Assembly: GCA_903857255.1 (NCBI GenBank)
Contig: CAIODY010000043.1
Coordinates: forward strand, 174,344-238,343
Reading direction: 5' to 3'
DNA from: an uncultured bacterium
GTDB lineage: Bacteria; Bacteroidota; Bacteroidia; Chitinophagales; CAIODY01
DNA: 64,000 bases
Both the position numbers and the translations under genes were made by a program. The notes under the pieces are model-generated. The model saw nothing but the letters and a program-made list of their open reading frames with translations. It ran no database searches and was not told the origin of the DNA. Below, in pieces: positions 2,626 to 13,705 of this stretch; the first letter of the stretch is position 1; every line of letters starts with the position of its first letter.

Positions 2626-3681
2626 ATGCGTATTGCAATTTCAATTGGTGATTTAAATGGCATTGGTGCCGAAGTGATTTTAAAAACTTTTAGCGAACAC
2701 ACTATTTTAAATAGATGTACCCCTGTGATTTATGCTTCGCAAAAATCTATGTCTTGGTGGCGCAAACATTTGCAATTAGAGAGTTTTAATTTCAATAGCA
2801 TTCCTTCTATTGATAAAGCAATTGCCAAACAAATAAATGTGGTGGAAGTGTGGAATGAAGATTTGGAAATAACGCCAGGTAAGGAATTACCAGTTACAGG
2901 AAAATACGCCATTAAATCGTTTGAAGCCGCTTGTAAAGATGTGGCAGCAGGCAAAGCCGATGCAATTGTTACTGCACCCATCAGCAAAAAAAATGTGAAA
3001 AGCAATGAATTTCCATACAGTGGTCATACTGAATATTTAGCAAAATTATTTGGTGGCAACGAAGCATTAATGATGATGGTGAGTGATACTTTAAGAGTTG
3101 GTTTGGCAACGGTTCATATTCCTGTGCAAGAAATTTCGCAAAATTTAACGATAGAAAAAGTGAGCCGAAAAATTGATTTATTGGCGCAATCATTACGAAA
3201 AGATTTTGCGATTGAAACACCTAAAATTGCTGTGTTAGGCGTTAATCCTCATGCTGGCGAAGGTGGCACCATTGGGCAAGAAGAAAAAACAATTTTAATT
3301 CCTGCCATTCAAAAAGCAAAGGATAAAAAAATAATGACGTTTGGTCCTTACAGCAGCGACGGTTTTTTTGGTAATGCTTCTTACAAACAATTTGATGCAG
3401 TGTTGGCTATGTATCACGACCAAGGCTTGATTCCGTTTAAAACATTAGCATTTGATAGTGGAGTAAATTATTCAGCTGGTTTGAGCATTGTGCGTACATC
3501 ACCTGACCACGGAACTGCTTTCGATATAGCAGGAAAAAATGAAGCCGATGAAAGTAGCTTCCGCAGTGCAGTTTTCGCAGCCATTGATATTGCCCGAAAC
3601 CGACAAGCTTATGCTGAAATGACTGCTAATCCGTTGAAAAGAAATCAGATGAAAATTGAACGTGCAGGCGGTGTAGCATAA
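2626..3681 (+). CDS. pdxA: 4-hydroxythreonine-4-phosphate dehydrogenase
   Basis: MRIAISIGDLNGIGAEVILK..., VTAPISKKN, GHTEYLA, MYHDQGLIPFK. Confidence 0.92.
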   Translation: MRIAISIGDLNGIGAEVILKTFSEHTILNRCTPVIYASQKSMSWWRKHLQLESFNFNSIPSIDKAIAKQINVVEVWNEDLEITPGKELPVTGKYAIKSFEAACKDVAAGKADAIVTAPISKKNVKSNEFPYSGHTEYLAKLFGGNEALMMMVSDTLRVGLATVHIPVQEISQNLTIEKVSRKIDLLAQSLRKDFAIETPKIAVLGVNPHAGEGGTIGQEEKTILIPAIQKAKDKKIMTFGPYSSDGFFGNASYKQFDAVLAMYHDQGLIPFKTLAFDSGVNYSAGLSIVRTSPDHGTAFDIAGKNEADESSFRSAVFAAIDIARNRQAYAEMTANPLKRNQMKIERAGGVA

Positions 3682-3700
3682 AATTTTTCGGATGTAAAAA

Positions 3701-4333
3701 TCAATCATTCAATTCTAAAAAATCTATTTCACCTAATCCTTTTCTTACCAATTCGATTTTATTGTTGGTGCAATCTAAAATGGTAGAAGCCACATTGCCA
3801 CCGGTTCCGCCGTCAATCATCAAATCAACTTGATGTTCATACAAGTTGTAAATTTCTTCTGGGTCGGTGTAATATTCTAACACTACATCCGTGTTGTGTA
3901 GCGATGTAGAAAGAATTGGCTGACCATGTTCTAAAATAATTTGTCGGCAAATTTCATTATCAGGAATCCTTATTCCTATTTGCTTTCGCTTGTTCAATAA
4001 AATTTTTGGTGTGTTTTTTCCAGCATTTAAAATGAACGTGTAAGGACCAGGCAAACATTGTTTCATGATGCGAAATAATTGATTGTTGAAGCCCAATACA
4101 TATTCTGACATTTGCGAAATATCAGCGCAAATTAAAGTGAGTAATAAATTTTTACCAGGTTGTACTTTTTTGAACTGATAAATTTTTTCAACTGCTTTGT
4201 GGCTGCCAATGCTGCATCCTAAGCCATACACCGTGTCGGTTGGATAAATCATAATGCCATCATCGTGCAATATTTCATGCACCATTTTTATTTTTCTTGG
4301 TTCTGGATTTTGAGGATGAATTTGTAACAACAT
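3701..4333 (-). CDS. YrdC-domain protein, YciO-like
   Basis: YPTDTVYGLGCSIGS; start trimmed to MLLQIHPQNPEPRKIK, which removes the overlap with the neighbouring gene. Confidence 0.8.
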   Translation of the reverse strand: MLLQIHPQNPEPRKIKMVHEILHDDGIMIYPTDTVYGLGCSIGSHKAVEKIYQFKKVQPGKNLLLTLICADISQMSEYVLGFNNQLFRIMKQCLPGPYTFILNAGKNTPKILLNKRKQIGIRIPDNEICRQIILEHGQPILSTSLHNTDVVLEYYTDPEEIYNLYEHQVDLMIDGGTGGNVASTILDCTNNKIELVRKGLGEIDFLELND

Positions 4334-4343
4334 AATTTGATTA

Positions 4344-5396
4344 TCAGTGGTTAAATGTTTTTCTAAAATCATCCCACGACTTTGTTTTGAAAGCATTTTC
4401 CCCATAAAAATGCAAAACCGTATTCAGCATTTGTGGTGTATAAAATCGGGGCAATGCATCTAATTTTTTCAAATCTTCATCTAAAAAAATGGTTGTTGGT
4501 AAAATGAGTTGATTGCCACTTAATGCCAAAGCCAATGTGTTGATGGGCATTCCCACCAATTCGGTATATTTGTAAACACTATTCATCAACTGAATGGAAT
4601 CTTTTGTTTGTACATTAAAATCAATGTAGTAATAATTTTTGTTGAGGTAAGTTGCAATGGCTGAATCAGCAAACACTGATTTTTTCATCACCTTGCAAGC
4701 GTTGCACCAATCAGTGTTCATGTTAATTAACCATTTGCGTTTTTCTTTTTTGTTTAGCTTTTCGGCTTCTTCAAAAGTGTATTTTTTTAACACTACTTTT
4801 TTATTCAATTTTGTAGTATCAAAAAATGAAGTGTTGAAGTATTGATTAAACTCTTGAAACGCACAATTCATATACACATTCTCAACAAAATAAATCAGAA
4901 TTGGCTCAATAGTTTTTTCATCTAAATAGCCCGGAATATTTGCCTGACTTTTTAATTCGTTGAATAAAAAAATGGTGGTTGGATACGATTGTTGATTGCC
5001 CATCAGCTTGTAAGCCAATTGGTGTATAGGTCTTGAGCCACTACCTTTGTTTACATACAAGGTATCTTTAAAATAAATACTGTCTTTGGTTTCAGCATTA
5101 AATTTTACTGGGTAATAACTTTGATTGATATAGTCAACTAAAAACTGATTGCTGTAAGTAGTTGCCATCATGCGTTTGCACCAGCCACACCAATCAGTGT
5201 AAACATCAATTAAGAAAGGCTTTGGTGTTTTTTTATTGGCTTCAAATGCTTCTTTAAAATTCATCCAATGCACTTTCGATGTGGGTTCTTCGGCAGGAAA
5301 ATTGGGATGTAATAATTGTGCAAATAGCGGCGAATTACTTACTATTATTATCAATAAAAGAAAAAATCTTTTTATCACGTTGAATATTTTTTGCAA
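4344..5396 (-). CDS. Tandem thioredoxin-fold protein, exported
   Basis: Hydrophobic N-terminal signal; two Trx-like motifs, DWCGWCKRM and DWCNACKVM. Confidence 0.8.
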   Translation of the reverse strand: MQKIFNVIKRFFLLLIIIVSNSPLFAQLLHPNFPAEEPTSKVHWMNFKEAFEANKKTPKPFLIDVYTDWCGWCKRMMATTYSNQFLVDYINQSYYPVKFNAETKDSIYFKDTLYVNKGSGSRPIHQLAYKLMGNQQSYPTTIFLFNELKSQANIPGYLDEKTIEPILIYFVENVYMNCAFQEFNQYFNTSFFDTTKLNKKVVLKKYTFEEAEKLNKKEKRKWLINMNTDWCNACKVMKKSVFADSAIATYLNKNYYYIDFNVQTKDSIQLMNSVYKYTELVGMPINTLALALSGNQLILPTTIFLDEDLKKLDALPRFYTPQMLNTVLHFYGENAFKTKSWDDFRKTFNH

Positions 5397-5481
5397 AGTA
5401 ATTCAATTTATGCAGAAGTGCCAAAACCAAAGCAACCATAAATTAAATGCACTTACTCGAAATTCTAAACCAATGTAAGCG

Positions 5482-5489
5482 TACTTTTG
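5482..5489 (+). promoter_or_regulatory. -7 box TACTTTTG upstream of rlmN
   Basis: Matches TAnnTTTG; favours ATG 5510. Confidence 0.5.
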
Positions 5490-5509
5490 TACTGCAAAAT
5501 TTTATTGAC

Positions 5510-6547
5510 ATGGATGCAAAAAAAGAAATCAGAGATTTAACCTTAGATGACATAAAAAATGAACTGCAAACCATTGGTGAAAAGGCTTTCAGGGCGCAAC
5601 AAATATGGGATTGGTTATGGGTAAAACAGGTTCGCAGCATTGATGACATGAGCAATTTATCAAAAGAATTGCGTCAGCATTTGAAAAATGAATTTGCTTT
5701 CAGAACAATTACAATTGATAAAATTCAGGTGAGTGAAGATGGCACACAAAAATTTCGCTTTAAAACTTTTGATGGTCATTCCATCGAAGGTGTTTTGATT
5801 CCGACTACCAATAGATTAACTGCTTGCATCAGTTCGCAAGTGGGTTGCAGCCTTACTTGCAAGTTTTGTGCAACAGGAAAATTAGGCAGAATCAGAAATT
5901 TATATTTCGATGAAATTTTTGACCAAGTAGCAATCATCAATCAAAAAGCGATGGAAGTGTACGACAAAAAATTAACTAATATTGTTTACATGGGCATGGG
6001 CGAACCTTTACTGAATTATAAAAGTGTGATGAAGTCAATTGATTTTATCACATCGCCAAAAGCAATGGCAATGAGCCCTTCGAGAATTACGGTGAGTACG
6101 GCTGGCATCGCTAAACAAATCAGGCAATTGGCTGACGATAATGCCAAATTTAATTTAGCCTTATCCTTACATGCAGCAGATGATGCCAAGCGCAGCAAAA
6201 TGATGACCATCAACGATTCCAACAATTTGAAAGAATTGGTGGAAGCATTGGACTATTATTTTAAGAAAACAAAAATTGCTGTAACCTACGAATACATTTT
6301 GTTTGAAGGCATTAACGATACGTTGGAAGATGTGATGAACATTGCAAAAATGTGCAAGCGCATTCCATCGAAAGTAAATGTAATTGAGTACAACACGGTT
6401 GATGGCACTGGTTTTAGAAAACCCGATGAAGAAAGTTTTGATAAATTTATTGAGCAATTACAAAAAAACAGGGTGAATGTAAGAGTGAGAAAAAGTCGTG
6501 GTAAAGACATTGACGCCGCTTGCGGACAATTAGCAAACAAGGGATAA
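5510..6547 (+). CDS. rlmN: 23S rRNA (adenine2503-C2)-methyltransferase
   Basis: CSLTCKFCATGKLG and MGMGEPLLNY motifs. Confidence 0.93.
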   Translation: MDAKKEIRDLTLDDIKNELQTIGEKAFRAQQIWDWLWVKQVRSIDDMSNLSKELRQHLKNEFAFRTITIDKIQVSEDGTQKFRFKTFDGHSIEGVLIPTTNRLTACISSQVGCSLTCKFCATGKLGRIRNLYFDEIFDQVAIINQKAMEVYDKKLTNIVYMGMGEPLLNYKSVMKSIDFITSPKAMAMSPSRITVSTAGIAKQIRQLADDNAKFNLALSLHAADDAKRSKMMTINDSNNLKELVEALDYYFKKTKIAVTYEYILFEGINDTLEDVMNIAKMCKRIPSKVNVIEYNTVDGTGFRKPDEESFDKFIEQLQKNRVNVRVRKSRGKDIDAACGQLANKG

Positions 6548-6580
6548 GATGATTTGAAAGCATAAAAGTTTATAAAGAAA

Positions 6581-7144
6581 ATGACGATGAATAAAAATTG
6601 GTTAAAGAAAATTGATAGCAGTTGGACTTTGTTTTTAGATAGAGATGGTGTGTTGAATCACGATGTAATAAATGATTATGTTCGCAACTGGAATCAGTTT
6701 CATTTTTTCGAAACCACTTTGCCTGCAATGAAAATTTTAGCAGAAAAATTTTCAAAAATTGTGGTGGTTACTAATCAACGAGGTGTAGGGATTGAACTAA
6801 TGTCGCAAAAAGATTTGGATAATATACATGCCAATATGATTGCTGAAATAGAACAACATAACGGCAGAATTGATAAAATTTATTTTTGCACCGATACTGA
6901 CCGTGAAAACAGCACTCACCGAAAACCAGCAACAGGAATGGGTTTGCAAGCTCAACAAGAATTTCCTGACATTGATTTTAAAAAATCAATCATGGTGGGT
7001 AACAATAGTAGTGATATGAAATTTGGTAGAAACTTGGGAATGAAAACTGTTTTTATTGACGATAAAAAAAAATTCGATGGAAGATTAACCGAAGAAATGG
7101 ATTTGATTTTCGACAACCTTTTGGAATTTGCTGAAGCGTTGTAA
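6581..7144 (+). CDS. HAD-IIIA hydrolase, D-glycero-manno-heptose bisphosphate phosphatase-like
   Basis: LFLDRDGVLNHDVINDYVRNWNQF, VTNQRGVGI, MVGNNSSDMKFGRN. Confidence 0.8.
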   Translation: MTMNKNWLKKIDSSWTLFLDRDGVLNHDVINDYVRNWNQFHFFETTLPAMKILAEKFSKIVVVTNQRGVGIELMSQKDLDNIHANMIAEIEQHNGRIDKIYFCTDTDRENSTHRKPATGMGLQAQQEFPDIDFKKSIMVGNNSSDMKFGRNLGMKTVFIDDKKKFDGRLTEEMDLIFDNLLEFAEAL

Positions 7145-7149
7145 AGAAT

Positions 7150-7911
7150 TTATTTCAACTCTAACAACACAGGGCAATGGTCACTGTGTTTTACATCGGG
7201 CATTATTTGCGCCGATTTTAATTGGGCATCCAATTCTTTTGAATTGTTGATGTAATCAATTCGCCAGCCTTTATTATTGTTTCTTGCATTCGCTCTAAAG
7301 CTCCACCAACTATATTGATGAGGGTTTGGATTGAAATGGCGAAACGAATCTGTAAACCCAGTAGCAAAAAATTTATCCATCCATGCTCGTTCTTCAGGCA
7401 AAAAACCTGATGAATCTTTGTTGCCTTTTGGGTCGTGAATATCAATTTCTTTATGGCAAATATTATAATCGCCTGCGACCACCAATTTTGGATTTTCTTT
7501 TTTTGTTTTTTCGATAAAAGGCAAATAATCATTTAAGAAATTCATCTTCACATCCTGCCGTAAATCGCCACTGCTGCCACTTGGGAAATAAGTATTCACA
7601 ATCATCACATCGCCAAATCTTGCACGAATCACTCTGCCTTCTTTGTCATATTCTGGAATGCCGCATCCAATCTGCACTTCATCAGGTTTTTGTTTGGAGA
7701 AAATTGCAACGCCACTATATCCTTTTTTTTCAGCCGAATGCCATTGTTGATGATAACCCAAATGCTCAAACAAAGAACAATCCACTTGGTCTTGCATAGC
7801 TTTTAATTCTTGCACACATACTACATCAAAATTATTTTGTTCGAGCCATTGCCCAAAACCTTTTCCCAAGGCTGAACGTATGCCATTCAAATTGTAAGAA
7901 ACGATTTTCAT
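7150..7911 (-). CDS. xth: Exodeoxyribonuclease III
   Basis: MKIVSYNLNGIRSALGKGF, CVQELKA, HSDHCPVLLEL. Confidence 0.92.
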   Translation of the reverse strand: MKIVSYNLNGIRSALGKGFGQWLEQNNFDVVCVQELKAMQDQVDCSLFEHLGYHQQWHSAEKKGYSGVAIFSKQKPDEVQIGCGIPEYDKEGRVIRARFGDVMIVNTYFPSGSSGDLRQDVKMNFLNDYLPFIEKTKKENPKLVVAGDYNICHKEIDIHDPKGNKDSSGFLPEERAWMDKFFATGFTDSFRHFNPNPHQYSWWSFRANARNNNKGWRIDYINNSKELDAQLKSAQIMPDVKHSDHCPVLLELK

Positions 7912-7941
7912 GTGGTCAAATTAATGGTAAAAATTAAATTA

Positions 7942-10053
7942 CTATTTCAACATTTGATACATTGCAAAGCTGCTACCATAAGCTATTACAGTCATGTAAG
8001 CAATTTGAAATGCTGCCCACTTCCAGCTACCAGTCTCACGTTTTACTACGGCAATGGTACTCATACATTGCATGGCAAAAGCATAAAACAAAAGCAAAGA
8101 AAATACTGTAGCTATTGTAAATACAGGTGTTCCGGTATCATCACGTTTGGCAGAAAGCATTTTTTGTTGTAACGTTTTTGAGTTGTCTTGTGCGTTGCCA
8201 ACGCTATACAGAGTACTCATGGTGCCAACAAAAACTTCACGAGCTGCAAATGATGTAATTAGTGAAATGCCAATTTTCCAATCATAACCTAACGGACGAA
8301 TAACCGGCTCGATAATTTTTCCTAAGTGCCCAGCATAGCTATTTTCCAGTTTTTTGGCTAAATATTCATGTTCTAAAACCAATTTATTTTCAGGATGATT
8401 TTGAATTTCAGAATCGTATTTATTTTTCAATTCCACCATTTTTTTCAATGGTCCGTAGCTCGACAAAAACCAAAGAAAAATCGAAATGGTCAAAATCACT
8501 TTGCCAGCTTGCCAAGCAAATATTTTTGCCTTTTCAATCATGGTTGAAAAAACATTTCCCCATCTCGGCATTCGATAAATCGGCAATTCCATAATGAAAA
8601 AGCTTCGCTCTTTTGCTTTGATAAAAATTCGCAAAATCATCCCAACAATTATCGCCGAAAAAAATCCGAGCAGGTACAAACCCATCATAGCAAAGGCTTG
8701 TATGCTGAAAATGCCGTAATAAACTTTGTGTGGCACAACCAAACTCACCAACAAAATATACACTGGCAATCGAGCCGAACAACTCATCAATGGTGTTACC
8801 AAAATGGTAATCAATCTATCTTTTTTATTTTCGATAGTTCTTGCACTCATGATGGCTGGTACAGCGCAAGCCATGCCACTGATTAATGGCACAACACTCC
8901 TTCCATTCATCCCAACTTTTCGCATCAACTTGTCCATCATAAAACTCACACGAGCCATATAGCCGCTATCTTCGAGTAATGTGATAAAGGCAAACAGCAA
9001 CATGATTTGTGGAATGAAAACCACGATGCCGCCCAAACCAGCAATAATTCCATTCGTTAATAAATCGGTGAAACCGTTATCAGGCAAATGATTGGTGAGG
9101 TAAGTGGTCAAAGCTCTTACGCCGCTATCAATCCAATCCATTGGCACTTGCGAAATGGAAAAAATTAATTGAAACATTAAAAACATCACGGCTAAAAAAA
9201 TCAAGTAGCCATAAATTGGGTGCGTAACAATTTTGTCAATTCTGTTTGGTTTCCAATTTTCAGTTTGCACACTCGATTCTTTTACGCAATCGTGCAAAAT
9301 GGAATTTATTTTTTCGTAGCGCAATAAAGTTTCTTCGCCTTGCAATGCACTGCTGTTAAAGCTTTGAAGCTGCAATACTTTTTTTGTTTGCTCTTTTGCA
9401 GCAGCATCTAAACAAAAAATATTGATGAAATGATGGGCTGTAAGCAATGCTGCATAATCACTTTTTATGTTGTGCATTTGCTTCATTTCGGCTACCACAG
9501 CCGATTGCAGAATGGTGGCATCAACAAAATAATTTTTTGAAACTGATTGTGGAATCAAAATTTGTTTTTTCAATTCTTCAATGCCTTCATTTTTTCGAGC
9601 ATTAATGGGAATAATTTTTACACCTAATTGTTCACTCAATTTTTTTATTTGAATGTGCAAACCCTTTTCCTGTGCCACATCCAGCATGTTTAATGCAATG
9701 ATGGTGGGGATTTTTAAATCAATAATTTGCGAAGCGAATAATAAATTGCGTTTTAAATTAGAAGCATCTGCCAGCACAATAATCAAATCGGGATACGATT
9801 CATTCTGTGGATTTAATAAAACATCAAAAGCAACATATTCATCCATCGAACGTGGATAAAGGCTGTAAGTGCCAGGTAAATCAACCACTTCAGCAATGGT
9901 GCTGGCATCCAAATGAGCAAAGCCAACTTTTTTTTCAACCGTTACACCTGGATAGTTTGCCACTTTTTGTCGCATACCTGTTAGTGCATTAAACAATGAT
10001 GTTTTGCCACAATTGGGATTACCTACTAATGCTATTTTGAGTTTGTTTGTCAA
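7942..10053 (-). CDS. feoB: Ferrous iron transporter B
   Basis: GNPNCGKTSLFNALTG, DLPGTYSL, nucleoside-recognition gate domains. Confidence 0.95.
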   Translation of the reverse strand: MTNKLKIALVGNPNCGKTSLFNALTGMRQKVANYPGVTVEKKVGFAHLDASTIAEVVDLPGTYSLYPRSMDEYVAFDVLLNPQNESYPDLIIVLADASNLKRNLLFASQIIDLKIPTIIALNMLDVAQEKGLHIQIKKLSEQLGVKIIPINARKNEGIEELKKQILIPQSVSKNYFVDATILQSAVVAEMKQMHNIKSDYAALLTAHHFINIFCLDAAAKEQTKKVLQLQSFNSSALQGEETLLRYEKINSILHDCVKESSVQTENWKPNRIDKIVTHPIYGYLIFLAVMFLMFQLIFSISQVPMDWIDSGVRALTTYLTNHLPDNGFTDLLTNGIIAGLGGIVVFIPQIMLLFAFITLLEDSGYMARVSFMMDKLMRKVGMNGRSVVPLISGMACAVPAIMSARTIENKKDRLITILVTPLMSCSARLPVYILLVSLVVPHKVYYGIFSIQAFAMMGLYLLGFFSAIIVGMILRIFIKAKERSFFIMELPIYRMPRWGNVFSTMIEKAKIFAWQAGKVILTISIFLWFLSSYGPLKKMVELKNKYDSEIQNHPENKLVLEHEYLAKKLENSYAGHLGKIIEPVIRPLGYDWKIGISLITSFAAREVFVGTMSTLYSVGNAQDNSKTLQQKMLSAKRDDTGTPVFTIATVFSLLLFYAFAMQCMSTIAVVKRETGSWKWAAFQIAYMTVIAYGSSFAMYQMLK

Positions 10054-10228
10054 TTATCTGAAATGAAAACACAAATATCCGAATTAAAGTTTTAAATTTT
10101 TGGAATAGCAATTTTTATTGGGAAACAATTTTATAAAAGACTCCGTTAAAGTGCACAAGTCAAAAATTTTCTGATAAAAATCATTTTCTCTTTTGACGCA
10201 AGTCATAATTCAAAGTAGCATCAACAAA

Positions 10229-10236
10229 TAGTTTTG
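10229..10236 (+). promoter_or_regulatory. -7 box TAGTTTTG upstream of paaB
   Basis: Matches TAnnTTTG, 13 nt before ATG 10250. Confidence 0.5.
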
Positions 10237-10249
10237 CTTGCAAAAAATT

Positions 10250-10543
10250 ATGTCGAACAACAATAATCAGTTCCCACAATGGGAAGTTTTCATACAAGAA
10301 AAAAGTGGAAGTCCGTTTGAACATGCAGGCAGTGTTCATGCCACTGATAAAAAAATGGCGTTGCAAAATGCTCGTGATATTTATACGCGAAGGCTTGAGG
10401 GCAGGGCGTTGTGGGTGGTGATGACGGATAATATTGCCTCCACAACCCGTGATGATGAAGAAGAATTTTTCGACCCAGCGGAAGATAAAATATATCGCAC
10501 ACCCAACTTTTACAAAATGCCAGCAGGCACTACTAATCTATAA
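10250..10543 (+). CDS. paaB: 1,2-phenylacetyl-CoA epoxidase subunit PaaB
   Basis: QFPQWEVFIQEKSGSPFEHAGSVHATDKKMALQNARDIYTRR. Confidence 0.9.
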   Translation: MSNNNNQFPQWEVFIQEKSGSPFEHAGSVHATDKKMALQNARDIYTRRLEGRALWVVMTDNIASTTRDDEEEFFDPAEDKIYRTPNFYKMPAGTTNL

Positions 10544-10561
10544 TTTAACAACAAATTTATC

Positions 10562-11320
10562 ATGAACACAAAAGAGGCATTATATAATTTCTGTTTGAGA
10601 TTAGCCGATAACAATATTGTATTAGGTCAGCGCTTGGCTGAATGGTGCAGCCGCGGACCCATACTGGAAGAGGATTTGGCGATGACCAACATTTCGTTGG
10701 ATTTATTTGGCGAAGCTGAAAGCCTTTATGAATACGCTGTTTCGTTGATGGACAACAATTCAACAGCCGACCATTTAGCATTTTTAAGAAGTGAAAGAGA
10801 ATACTTCAACAACTTGTTGGTGGAACAACCCAATGGTGATTTTGCTCAAACGATGATGAAACAGGTTTTGTTTTCAGCATTTGCAAAACACTTGTATGAA
10901 GCATTATGTAACAGCCATGATGAAACCTTGAAAGGATTATCTGCAAAGGCTTTGAAAGAAACAAAATATCATCTACGCCATAGCAGCGAATGGATTATTC
11001 GCTTTGGTAATGGCACTGAAGAAAGTATACGTCGTACTCAATTTGCATTAAATAAATTGTGGCGTTTTACTGATGATATGTTTGTGATGAATGATGTGGA
11101 CGAAGAATTAATTTCGATGGGCATCAGTTTTAATTTGGATGATATTCATGCTAAATGGAAATTCACTATCAGCGAAATTTTTGCTGAAGCTAATTTGCAA
11201 ATACCTGATGCCAATAATGTGATAACTGGCGGCAGCAAAGGCTTTCACACCGAACATTTAGGACATTTACTTTGCGAAATGCAATATTTACAACGTGTAC
11301 ATCCGGGCGCAACATGGTAA
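10562..11320 (+). CDS. paaC: 1,2-phenylacetyl-CoA epoxidase subunit PaaC
   Basis: LADNNIVLGQRLAEWCSRGPILEEDLAMTNISLDLFGEAESLYEYA; KALKETKYHLRHSSEWIIRFGNGTEES. Confidence 0.9.
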   Translation: MNTKEALYNFCLRLADNNIVLGQRLAEWCSRGPILEEDLAMTNISLDLFGEAESLYEYAVSLMDNNSTADHLAFLRSEREYFNNLLVEQPNGDFAQTMMKQVLFSAFAKHLYEALCNSHDETLKGLSAKALKETKYHLRHSSEWIIRFGNGTEESIRRTQFALNKLWRFTDDMFVMNDVDEELISMGISFNLDDIHAKWKFTISEIFAEANLQIPDANNVITGGSKGFHTEHLGHLLCEMQYLQRVHPGATW

Positions 11321-11823
11321 ACCTTGATTCACCATTAACCAACGAAAAAGTTTGGAAAATTTTAAATCAAATTCCCGACCCAGATATTCCTGTGGTGAGC
11401 ATTGTGGAGTTGGGCATTGTGAGAAATGTAGAAAACAACGATGCTGAAAAATGGATAGTAACGATTACACCAAGTTATTCAGGTTGCCCAGCCATGGCGG
11501 TTTTCAGAGAGGATATCAAAACTGTTTTATTGGAAAGTGGAGCGAAAGAAGTAGAACTAAAAATTTCATATTCGCCTGCCTGGACAACTGATTGGTTGAG
11601 TGAAACCACTCGTGAAAAAATGCGGAAGCATGGCATTGCACCACCTGAAACTAATTCATCGCAATCTGTTGAATTATTTGCTGATTCTAAAAGAAAAATT
11701 ACTTGCCCACATTGTGGTAAAAACGAAACACATCGCACTTCGCAATTTGGCTCAACGCCTTGCAAAGCTTTGTGGTATTGTGATTCATGCCATCAGCCAT
11801 TTGAATATTTTAAGTGTTATTGA
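11314..11823 (+). CDS. paaD: 1,2-phenylacetyl-CoA epoxidase subunit PaaD
   Basis: DUF59-type N-terminus (IPDPDIPVVSIVELGIV) plus zinc ribbon CPHCG...GSTPCKALWYCDSCHQPFEYFKCY; ATGGTAA overlap with paaC. Confidence 0.9.
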   Translation: MVNLDSPLTNEKVWKILNQIPDPDIPVVSIVELGIVRNVENNDAEKWIVTITPSYSGCPAMAVFREDIKTVLLESGAKEVELKISYSPAWTTDWLSETTREKMRKHGIAPPETNSSQSVELFADSKRKITCPHCGKNETHRTSQFGSTPCKALWYCDSCHQPFEYFKCY

Positions 11824-11826
11824 AAA

Positions 11827-12222
11827 ATGAAAAGAGATATTTCAGATAAAACCGACATCAAAATATTGGTAGATTCTTTTTATGCAAAAGTAAAATCGGA
11901 TGAATTGCTTGGCAAAATTTTTGATGACATCATGCAAGTAAATTGGGAAAAGCATTTGCCCAAAATGTATGATTTTTGGGATAATATTTTGTTCCGAACC
12001 AACAATTATCATGGTCGTCCGTTTCCACCACATTTGGATGTGAATGATAAAATCGCCTTAACCAACGAACATTTTCAGCGTTGGATAAATTTATTCTACA
12101 CCACTGTTGATGAGCATTTCATTGGTAAAAATGCAGAAGAAATAAAATTCAGAGCCAACTCCATCAAGCAGATTTTTAATTACAAAATCAATTTCATTAA
12201 TCATCATCAAAGCCAAATATAA
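11827..12222 (+). CDS. Group III truncated hemoglobin
   Basis: LVDSFYAKVKSDELLGKIFDD...WEKHLPKMYDFWDNILFRTNNYHGRPFPPHLDV; starts 3 bp after the paaD stop. Confidence 0.87.
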   Translation: MKRDISDKTDIKILVDSFYAKVKSDELLGKIFDDIMQVNWEKHLPKMYDFWDNILFRTNNYHGRPFPPHLDVNDKIALTNEHFQRWINLFYTTVDEHFIGKNAEEIKFRANSIKQIFNYKINFINHHQSQI

Positions 12223-12284: not shown

Positions 12285-12309
12285 TTTTGTGAAATTATTT
12301 TTCACAAAA
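12285..12309. promoter_or_regulatory. Perfect 10-bp inverted repeat TTTTGTGAAA-N5-TTTCACAAAA
   Basis: Read directly; 13 nt upstream of ATG 12323; no T-run after it. Confidence 0.5.
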
Positions 12310-12322
12310 AATCTGTTTCAAA

Positions 12323-13705
12323 ATGTTTATCCAACAACTTTATACCAACTGTTTAGCGCAAGCCGCTTATTATATTGAATCGAATGGTGAAGCCGCAATC
12401 ATCGACCCATTAAGGGATACAGCAGATTACCTTACTTTATTAAAATCAAGAAATGCAAAATTGAAATACATTTTTGAAACGCATTTTCATGCTGATTTTG
12501 TGAGCGGACATTTAGATTTAGCCAAGCAAACTGGTGCACAAATAATCTTTGGACCTGATGCAAAACCTAATTATGAAGCACGAATTTGCCGCGATAATGA
12601 AAAACTTTTGTTGGGCGATTGTGTGCTGCAAGTGTTGCACACACCGGGTCACACCATTGAATCCATCTGTGTTTTATTGTTTGATGAACAACATAAATCG
12701 CACAGTTTATTTAGTGGCGATACTTTGTTTGTGGGCGATGTTGGTCGCCCTGATTTGTTGAGTGGAAATTTATCGAAAGAAGTTTTAGCCAGCATGTTGT
12801 ATGATTCAATTCAACAAAAAATAATGCCGCTAAATGGTGACGTGATTGTATATCCTGGGCATGGAGCTGGTTCTCCTTGCGGAAAAAATTTAGGCAAGGA
12901 AACCAGCTCTACTATTGGCATTCAGAAGAAATTGAATTATGCTTTACAACCAATTACAAAAGAAAAATTCATTGAAATAGTTACTGCTGACCAACCTGCT
13001 GCGCCAGCTTATTTTTTTAAAGATGCAGCGATAAATAAAAATGGTTACGAAAGTTTTGAAACCGTTTTACAAAAAGAAATGAAAGATTTATCTGCCGAGC
13101 AAGTGGCTGAATATATCCGCAAAGGTGCGGTGGTGCTGGATGTGAGAAACAATAATGATTTTGCCAATGCACATATCAAAGGTGCTATCAACATTGCACT
13201 GAATGGAACATTCGCTATTTACACAGGTTCTATTATTTCATTAACGCAACCGATTGTGTTGGTTTGCGACATGGGAAAAGAGAAAGAACCACTTACAAGG
13301 CTTGCCCGTGTTGGGTTTGAGAATGTAGTGGGTTATTGGGATGGTGATGTTCACTTTTTAATTTCGCATGAAATTGAAATCAGCAAAATAAAAACGATTG
13401 CCGTGGATGAGTTGAATGAAGTGTTGACGAATGAAAAAATGGTGGTGTTGGATGTGCGATTGAAAAATGAATTTGATGTACAACATTTAAAAAATGCCAT
13501 CAACATTCCGTTGAATGAATTGCAAGATAGAATTGCCGAATTAAACCCCAAAGATGAATTGTTGATTTACTGCGCAGGCGGCTACCGAAGCATGATTGCA
13601 GCTTCTATTTTAGAAAAAAACGGTTTCAAAAAACTGATTAATTTGAATGGCGGAATTAATGCGGTGAATAAATACAAACCCGAAATGATTTTGCAAATGG
13701 CTTGA
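12323..13705 (+). CDS. MBL-fold persulfide dioxygenase fused to two rhodanese domains (CstB-like)
   Basis: FETHFHADFVSGH (MBL), LDVRNNNDFANAHIKGAINI and LDVRLKNEFDVQHLKNAINIP...YCAGGYRSM. Confidence 0.88.
   Translation: MFIQQLYTNCLAQAAYYIESNGEAAIIDPLRDTADYLTLLKSRNAKLKYIFETHFHADFVSGHLDLAKQTGAQIIFGPDAKPNYEARICRDNEKLLLGDCVLQVLHTPGHTIESICVLLFDEQHKSHSLFSGDTLFVGDVGRPDLLSGNLSKEVLASMLYDSIQQKIMPLNGDVIVYPGHGAGSPCGKNLGKETSSTIGIQKKLNYALQPITKEKFIEIVTADQPAAPAYFFKDAAINKNGYESFETVLQKEMKDLSAEQVAEYIRKGAVVLDVRNNNDFANAHIKGAINIALNGTFAIYTGSIISLTQPIVLVCDMGKEKEPLTRLARVGFENVVGYWDGDVHFLISHEIEISKIKTIAVDELNEVLTNEKMVVLDVRLKNEFDVQHLKNAINIPLNELQDRIAELNPKDELLIYCAGGYRSMIAASILEKNGFKKLINLNGGINAVNKYKPEMILQMA

Follow-up and report, generated by a model that had tools for sequence, protein, structure and literature searches.

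A paaBCD-truncated hemoglobin gene string in a Chitinophagales genome as the probable distal half of a split operon for aromatic ring oxygenation

The genes paaB, paaC, paaD and trHb (group III truncated hemoglobin) described here appear to be the distal half of an operon, hmgA-hppD-paaABCD-trHb, that has been broken between paaA and paaB, because this operon is unbroken in a relative from the same genus. They form a tight string in one direction (10250-12222) within a window of 64,000 nucleotides (C43:174344-238343), which comes from a metagenome-assembled genome (MAG; G000) of 2.97 Mb, 134 contigs and 96.9% completeness. Taken as a whole, it is fairly probable that the split operon encodes ring oxygenases for aromatic amino acids that are expressed under oxygen limitation, with the globin protecting these enzymes or feeding them oxygen. 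Within this reading we infer the partnership of subunits across contigs, the regulator and its signal, the substrate, the electron donor and the role of the globin. The features of the window are as follows.

7942-10053, minus strand: feoB, divergent neighbour outside the operon (TIGR00437, 542 bits; TTG start)
10100-10115, no strand: approximate junction where homology with the feoB promoter of the relative ends (window compared with L105 by eye)
10171-10183, plus strand: FNR-like dyad 1, CTGATAAAAATCA (genome-wide tandem pattern)
10193-10205, plus strand: FNR-like dyad 2, TTGACGCAAGTCA, centred near -41 relative to the presumed transcription start
10229-10236, plus strand: -7 box TAGTTTTG of the Bacteroidota type TAnnTTTG, exactly 36 bp from the start of dyad 2
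10250-10543, plus strand: paaB, 97 aa, bridging subunit (TIGR02157, PF06243)
10562-11320, plus strand: paaC, 252 aa, structural subunit (TIGR02158; PDB match)
11314-11823, plus strand: paaD, 169 aa (TIGR02159, PF01883, PF23451)
11827-12222, plus strand: trHb, 131 aa (2ig3 match, heme-pocket residues)
12285-12309, plus strand: intergenic stem of 10 bp with a 5-nt loop, downstream of trHb (-13.7 kcal/mol, z -3.6)
12323-13705, plus strand: metallo-beta-lactamase (MBL)/rhodanese protein of the persulfide dioxygenase type (PF00753 + PF00581)

All three Paa proteins exceed the cut-offs of their NCBIfam equivalog models, with 120 bits for PaaB (TIGR02157, cut-off 85), 278 bits for PaaC (TIGR02158, cut-off 133) and 187 bits for PaaD (TIGR02159, cut-off 108). 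The best PDB matches of PaaC are the PaaC chains 4iit_C and 3pvr_B (E 1e-70 to 1e-68), and PaaD carries an FeS_assembly_P domain plus a zinc ribbon. The coordinates of an earlier account of this DNA, called the sequence-only reading below, are all correct, and so are its 7-bp overlap ATGGTAA of paaC and paaD (here 11314-11320) and its trHb start 3 bp past the paaD stop (here an ATG at 11827 after a TGA). Its description of feoB as divergent upstream, with paaA and paaE missing from the neighbourhood, also holds, and neither gene is found anywhere within the 64-kb window. The stem beyond trHb is perfect, lacks a clear T run and could be the transcript end; the MBL/rhodanese gene that follows is probably separate from paaBCD-trHb in this genome. 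On the other side, sequence to the right of the approximate junction at 10100-10115 presumably arrived with, or was made for, paaBCD-trHb. The feoB start codon is apparently TTG in both genus members (window 10053, L105 1318).

There are two full PaaA genes in the window genome according to TIGR02156, at C86:62227-63093 and C43:134436-135299. The first scores 486 bits against a cut-off of 280 and is the last gene of an hmgA-hppD-paaA run, which is followed by a gene for an unrelated RNA-binding protein. Its di-iron ligands E45, E75, H78, D129, E158 and H161 (ligand list from PMC4498308) and its lysine-bridge residues K71 and E52 are invariant in 65/65 aligned PaaA rows. In the same-genus relative G031 (Chitinophagales bacterium isolate Jr-16oct17-254, contig CANFST010000024.1), hmgA, hppD, paaA, paaB, paaC, paaD and trHb form a single run of seven genes (L042 5381-10936), wherein a 27-bp spacer separates paaA from paaB and the gap between paaD and trHb is again 3 bp. 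Contiguous paaABCD also occurs at L055, L119, L155 and L185, where hmgA-hppD is present too, and at L115 together with tryptophan dioxygenase (TDO), and so we infer that the operon was split in the window genome rather than fused in G031. Comparison of the two species shows purifying selection on all seven genes, in the proximal as in the distal half (dN/dS 0.01-0.19), which suggests that the Paa complex is in use. PaaA from contig C86 would assemble with the PaaB and PaaC that the window encodes, and PaaD would help to load the complex with iron.

The sequence-only reading had offered two alternatives, namely that paaA is unlinked or that these subunits serve another oxygenase. The first was borne out on contig C86, and the second is contradicted by the seven-gene operon of G031, wherein paaA is joined to paaBCD-trHb, so the window subunits appear to be those of an ordinary PaaA from the same clade. 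A candidate for such another oxygenase is PaaA2 (441 bits with TIGR02156), because the contig of the window also carries paaA2-B2-C2 (C43:134436-136484; L005 9347-11560), at a distance of about 50 kb. However, PaaA2 comes with B2 and C2 partners of its own, and in the PaaA tree a very long branch separates it from every canonical PaaA protein. It is thus extremely unlikely that the window paaBCD serves PaaA2 or some other oxygenase unconnected to the PaaA of C86. The same reading had named as evidence against itself a paaA-paaE cluster elsewhere that carries a separate paaBCD, and this did not turn up; the paaA2-B2-C2 cluster has neither paaE nor an adjacent paaD.

PaaD exceeds its cut-off in 96 of the 150 genomes sampled from the order, and by coordinates trHb directly follows paaD in only two of these, G000 and G031. 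No such adjacency occurs in the other 79 loci fetched from wider genome contigs, and G057, from the sample of six genomes of the family, has this paaD without trHb. The trHb at L048 was excluded from the count, since it lies 3.5 kb from paaD on the opposite strand. Conservation of the adjacency, which the sequence-only reading had made a point to check, is thus found in both genus members with this paaD and fails in the other 94 paaD-bearing genomes. The adjacency is seen only in two species of one genus.

The association with hmgA-hppD extends further. In the PaaA tree there is a clade of seven (SH-aLRT 95), six of which occur with hmgA-hppD and one (L115) with TDO, which points to a link between hmgA-hppD and paa that is much older than the link to trHb. 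The operon is also present at L176, where paaB was missed by our ORF filter. A single clade for all hmgA-linked PaaA proteins was considered, but six of the seven group together and L119 falls outside, although the clade of all seven is not rejected (p-AU 0.09). The L119 locus (2973-10468) is a supercluster with the order hmgA-hppD-kynurenine monooxygenase (KMO)-TDO-paaABCD, and this run covers tyrosine and tryptophan catabolism and probably that of phenylalanine too. Compared with the tyrosine/homogentisate operon hmgA-hppD, the gene order is the same in G031, L155, L176 and L185, but here the operon is fused to paaABCD and, in the window genus, also to the globin gene. A literature search for homogentisate together with phenylacetyl-CoA epoxidase returned single-genome surveys only. 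The fusion of paaABCD to homogentisate/tryptophan catabolism in one Bacteroidota clade is new.

The -7 box that had been noted before paaB is accompanied by two FNR-like dyads, and the combination of a dyad, 36 bp and TAnnTTTG occurs once in the 64 kb versus a mean of 0.01 in shuffled sequence. There are exactly three matches to the tandem dyad in the window genome, located before paaB, hmgA and ccoG (C70:29049), and two in G031, before hmgA and ccoG. The other four family genomes have none, and there are none in any of the six when the pattern is reversed. The hmgA promoter on C86 comprises the dyads TTGACCTAAATCA and TTGACAATCGTCA and the -7 box AATATTTG. The common layout, with two dyads 22 bp apart and a -7 box 36 or 37 bp further on, was scored to a maximum of 24 as dyad, 22 or 23 bp, dyad, 35-37 bp and -7 box. 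Scores of 21-24 are reached before paaB, before hmgA in G000 and G031 as well as in less closely related Bacteroidota (L155, L176 and L185), before TDO in another of these (L115) and before ccoG (two genomes), and none of 500 shuffles of each promoter reached its score. At L055 and L119, the outer hmg-linked members, the layout is absent and the score is at chance level. A fourth and weaker match in the window genome (L006 17933), which fell outside the six-genome tandem-pattern search, has an imperfect first dyad and precedes a frame for a CcoI/FixI-type copper ATPase. We take these genes to be ccoG and ccoI from our own reading of their sequence features.

Activators of the CRP/FNR family usually bind some 41 bp before the transcription start. 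In several promoters, those of cbb3 genes included, the spacing between the conserved dyad and the -7 box is constant, as is characteristic of FNR/FixK-type control. In this respect the promoters resemble the FNR/FixK regulon of the cbb3 oxidase (ccoNOQP, ccoGHIS), with an FNR-like dyad near -41 before ccoG and ccoI, but in the window genome the same tandem layout also precedes aromatic ring oxygenases. Sites reported for the family are TTGATnnnnATCAA (FNR/DNR) and TTGACnnnnGTCAA (HcpR) (PMC1274295). Since both halves of the operon carry the same low-oxygen-type layout as ccoG, they are probably still co-expressed, and trHb with them. Thus, when oxygen is scarce, a CRP/FNR-family activator probably induces high-affinity respiration, the ring-cleaving enzymes and the globin jointly. 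Literature searches on Bacteroidetes brought up nothing relevant on FNR in connection with homogentisate or with cbb3 promoters and their binding sites. An FNR-like promoter layout common to the paa/hmg halves and cbb3 genes is likewise new, as is the genus-specific globin.

Two other assignments of this promoter were rejected. It might be a copy of the hmgA promoter, but their local alignment score of 22 is equalled by 148 of 1000 shuffles, so the layout is common and common descent is unsupported. The dyads are also not attributed to feoB, because they are missing before feoB of G031, which adjoins another gene upstream, and because their spacing matches paaB alone.

The promoter also bears on whether the split is real. 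The source is a MAG in 134 contigs and the only relative with all the genes has them joined, as would be expected if the operon were whole in the real organism and had been divided by an assembly error. We consider this very unlikely, in that both breakpoints are internal to contigs rather than at contig ends, and a chimeric join would not create the complete promoter of paaB, whose sequence is unlike both the hmgA promoter and the paaA-paaB spacer of G031. Chance is a further alternative, wherein the layout merely reflects an AT-rich genome and the globin follows paaD by accident; the adjacency is, after all, known from one genus only. This is hardly credible given three exact tandem dyads versus none with the pattern reversed, the shuffles described above, and a globin kept at the 3-bp gap in both species with 92% identity and a dN/dS of 0.19. 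The split operon offers a clean natural case of an operon broken apart with both pieces retaining one promoter layout, and for Bacteroidota it links ring oxygenases that consume oxygen with the cbb3 regulon of low-oxygen conditions.

The proteins resemble the 1,2-phenylacetyl-CoA epoxidase PaaABCDE of E. coli and Klebsiella (PDB 3PW1, 4IIT), in that PaaA to PaaD score over or near equivalog cut-offs and PaaA of the window genome keeps all di-iron ligands and the lysine bridge. Unlike in that system, the genes sit with hmgA-hppD rather than paaFGHIJKZ, the operon is in two parts, and PaaE, PaaK and PaaZ are not recognised. A catalytic PaaA with its di-iron ligands is present together with PaaB and PaaC, and what the complex lacks is a recognisable PaaE reductase. 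Activity in vitro depends on PaaE, and activity in vivo on PaaD (PMC4498308). The best PaaE match in the window genome reaches 82.6 bits against a cut-off of 420.8 and is a reductase without a 2Fe-2S domain, and a non-orthologous reductase may replace PaaE. PaaK has no match in this genome, and the best PaaZ match scores 98.7 bits against a cut-off of 562.8; G031, G057 and G054 likewise have no PaaZ over cut-off. Phenylalanine hydroxylase (PF00351) is absent from all six genomes of the family sample. The standard phenylacetate pathway therefore appears incomplete in the window genome. PaaZ is present in other hmg-linked genomes (G150-G154), and so a complete route may exist there that has decayed or been replaced here.

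Without PaaK or PaaZ, phenylpyruvate would have to be the source of phenylacetyl-CoA, whose epoxide would have no known exit. The complex would oxygenate an aromatic CoA ester that originates from the breakdown of aromatic amino acids, with phenylacetyl-CoA as the default guess, alongside the tyrosine route through HppD and HmgA. The simplest account is that this ester derives from phenylalanine by way of phenylpyruvate, without PaaK, and that another reductase serves as electron donor. It is rather improbable that PaaABCD has become a separate ring oxygenase of tyrosine/phenylalanine-homogentisate catabolism, no longer phenylacetate-catabolic, which operates without PaaE under the cbb3 regulator with the globin as its oxygen-delivering or NO-shielding partner. 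A 2026 survey proposes PaaA/PaaC as markers of the phenylacetate pathway (PMC13186573), and the present case suggests that these two alone are no marker of a complete pathway.

The globin is barely over the Pfam Bac_globin cut-off (22.0 versus 21), and its best PDB match is the group III hemoglobin Ctb of Campylobacter (2ig3, E 3e-11). Residues Y19, H43, W51, H69 and W86 align with heme-pocket positions of Ctb that we take to be TyrB10, HisE7, TrpE15, HisF8 and TrpG8, as expected of a group III member. The two proteins are alike in this match, in these residues and in the expected CRP/FNR-family control, but Ctb of Campylobacter jejuni stands alone and the window trHb appears translationally coupled to an oxygenase operon. 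Among 28 trHb loci of the order sample, six have a RIC/ScdA neighbour and six an Rrf2-type regulator. Two matches to a dyad plus -7 box, at the trHb loci L087 and L101, were not taken as trHb promoters, since each is on the opposite strand and over 1 kb distant from the gene. Literature searches found no paper that links truncated hemoglobin to phenylacetate or phenylacetyl-CoA.

In the proposed mechanism the globin would either shield the iron centres from NO or buffer and deliver oxygen to them. A tenable alternative, which we rate as somewhat short of probable, is that it was recruited for NO protection, removing NO that would poison the di-iron PaaA as well as HppD and HmgA, both Fe(II) dioxygenases, and that an NO-responsive regulator of the FNR type (HcpR/DNR/NssR class) recognises the dyads. 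This departs from the split-operon reading given at the outset solely in the job of the globin and in the signal. The paa-linked pair belongs to a 95-supported set of 12 in the trHb tree, seven of which adjoin RIC/ScdA or Rrf2 (NsrR-type), and these neighbours favour NO protection. In addition, TTGACnnnnGTCAA has been reported as the site of HcpR for delta-proteobacteria and cyanobacteria (PMC1274295), and nitrosative stress induces Campylobacter Ctb, which is controlled by NssR of the CRP/FNR family (PMC4601167). However, the co-targets ccoG and ccoI indicate oxygen rather than NO, such that cbb3 co-regulation of the paa-trHb halves favours an oxygen role, and the NO dioxygenase function of Ctb is itself uncertain (PMC3820574). 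With either role, a group III globin of disputed function gains defined and testable candidate partners.

The second Paa set has features of its own. The di-iron residues of PaaA2 are intact and the set is preceded by an MBL-rhodanese gene. A PaaD-like partner, D2, is encoded on another contig (C134:39528-39968; L041 10517-11008), where it adjoins genes for an acyl-CoA dehydrogenase and a reductase, and this second type of PaaD looks common across the order. MBL-fold/rhodanese genes thus adjoin both Paa sets of the window genome (window 12323-13705, L005 7829-9235). A relative of the window gene is located directly behind paaD in L185 (10465-11889), giving the order hmgA-hppD-paaABCD-MBL, and these proteins are possibly a further oxygen-dependent sulfur enzyme tied to Paa operons.
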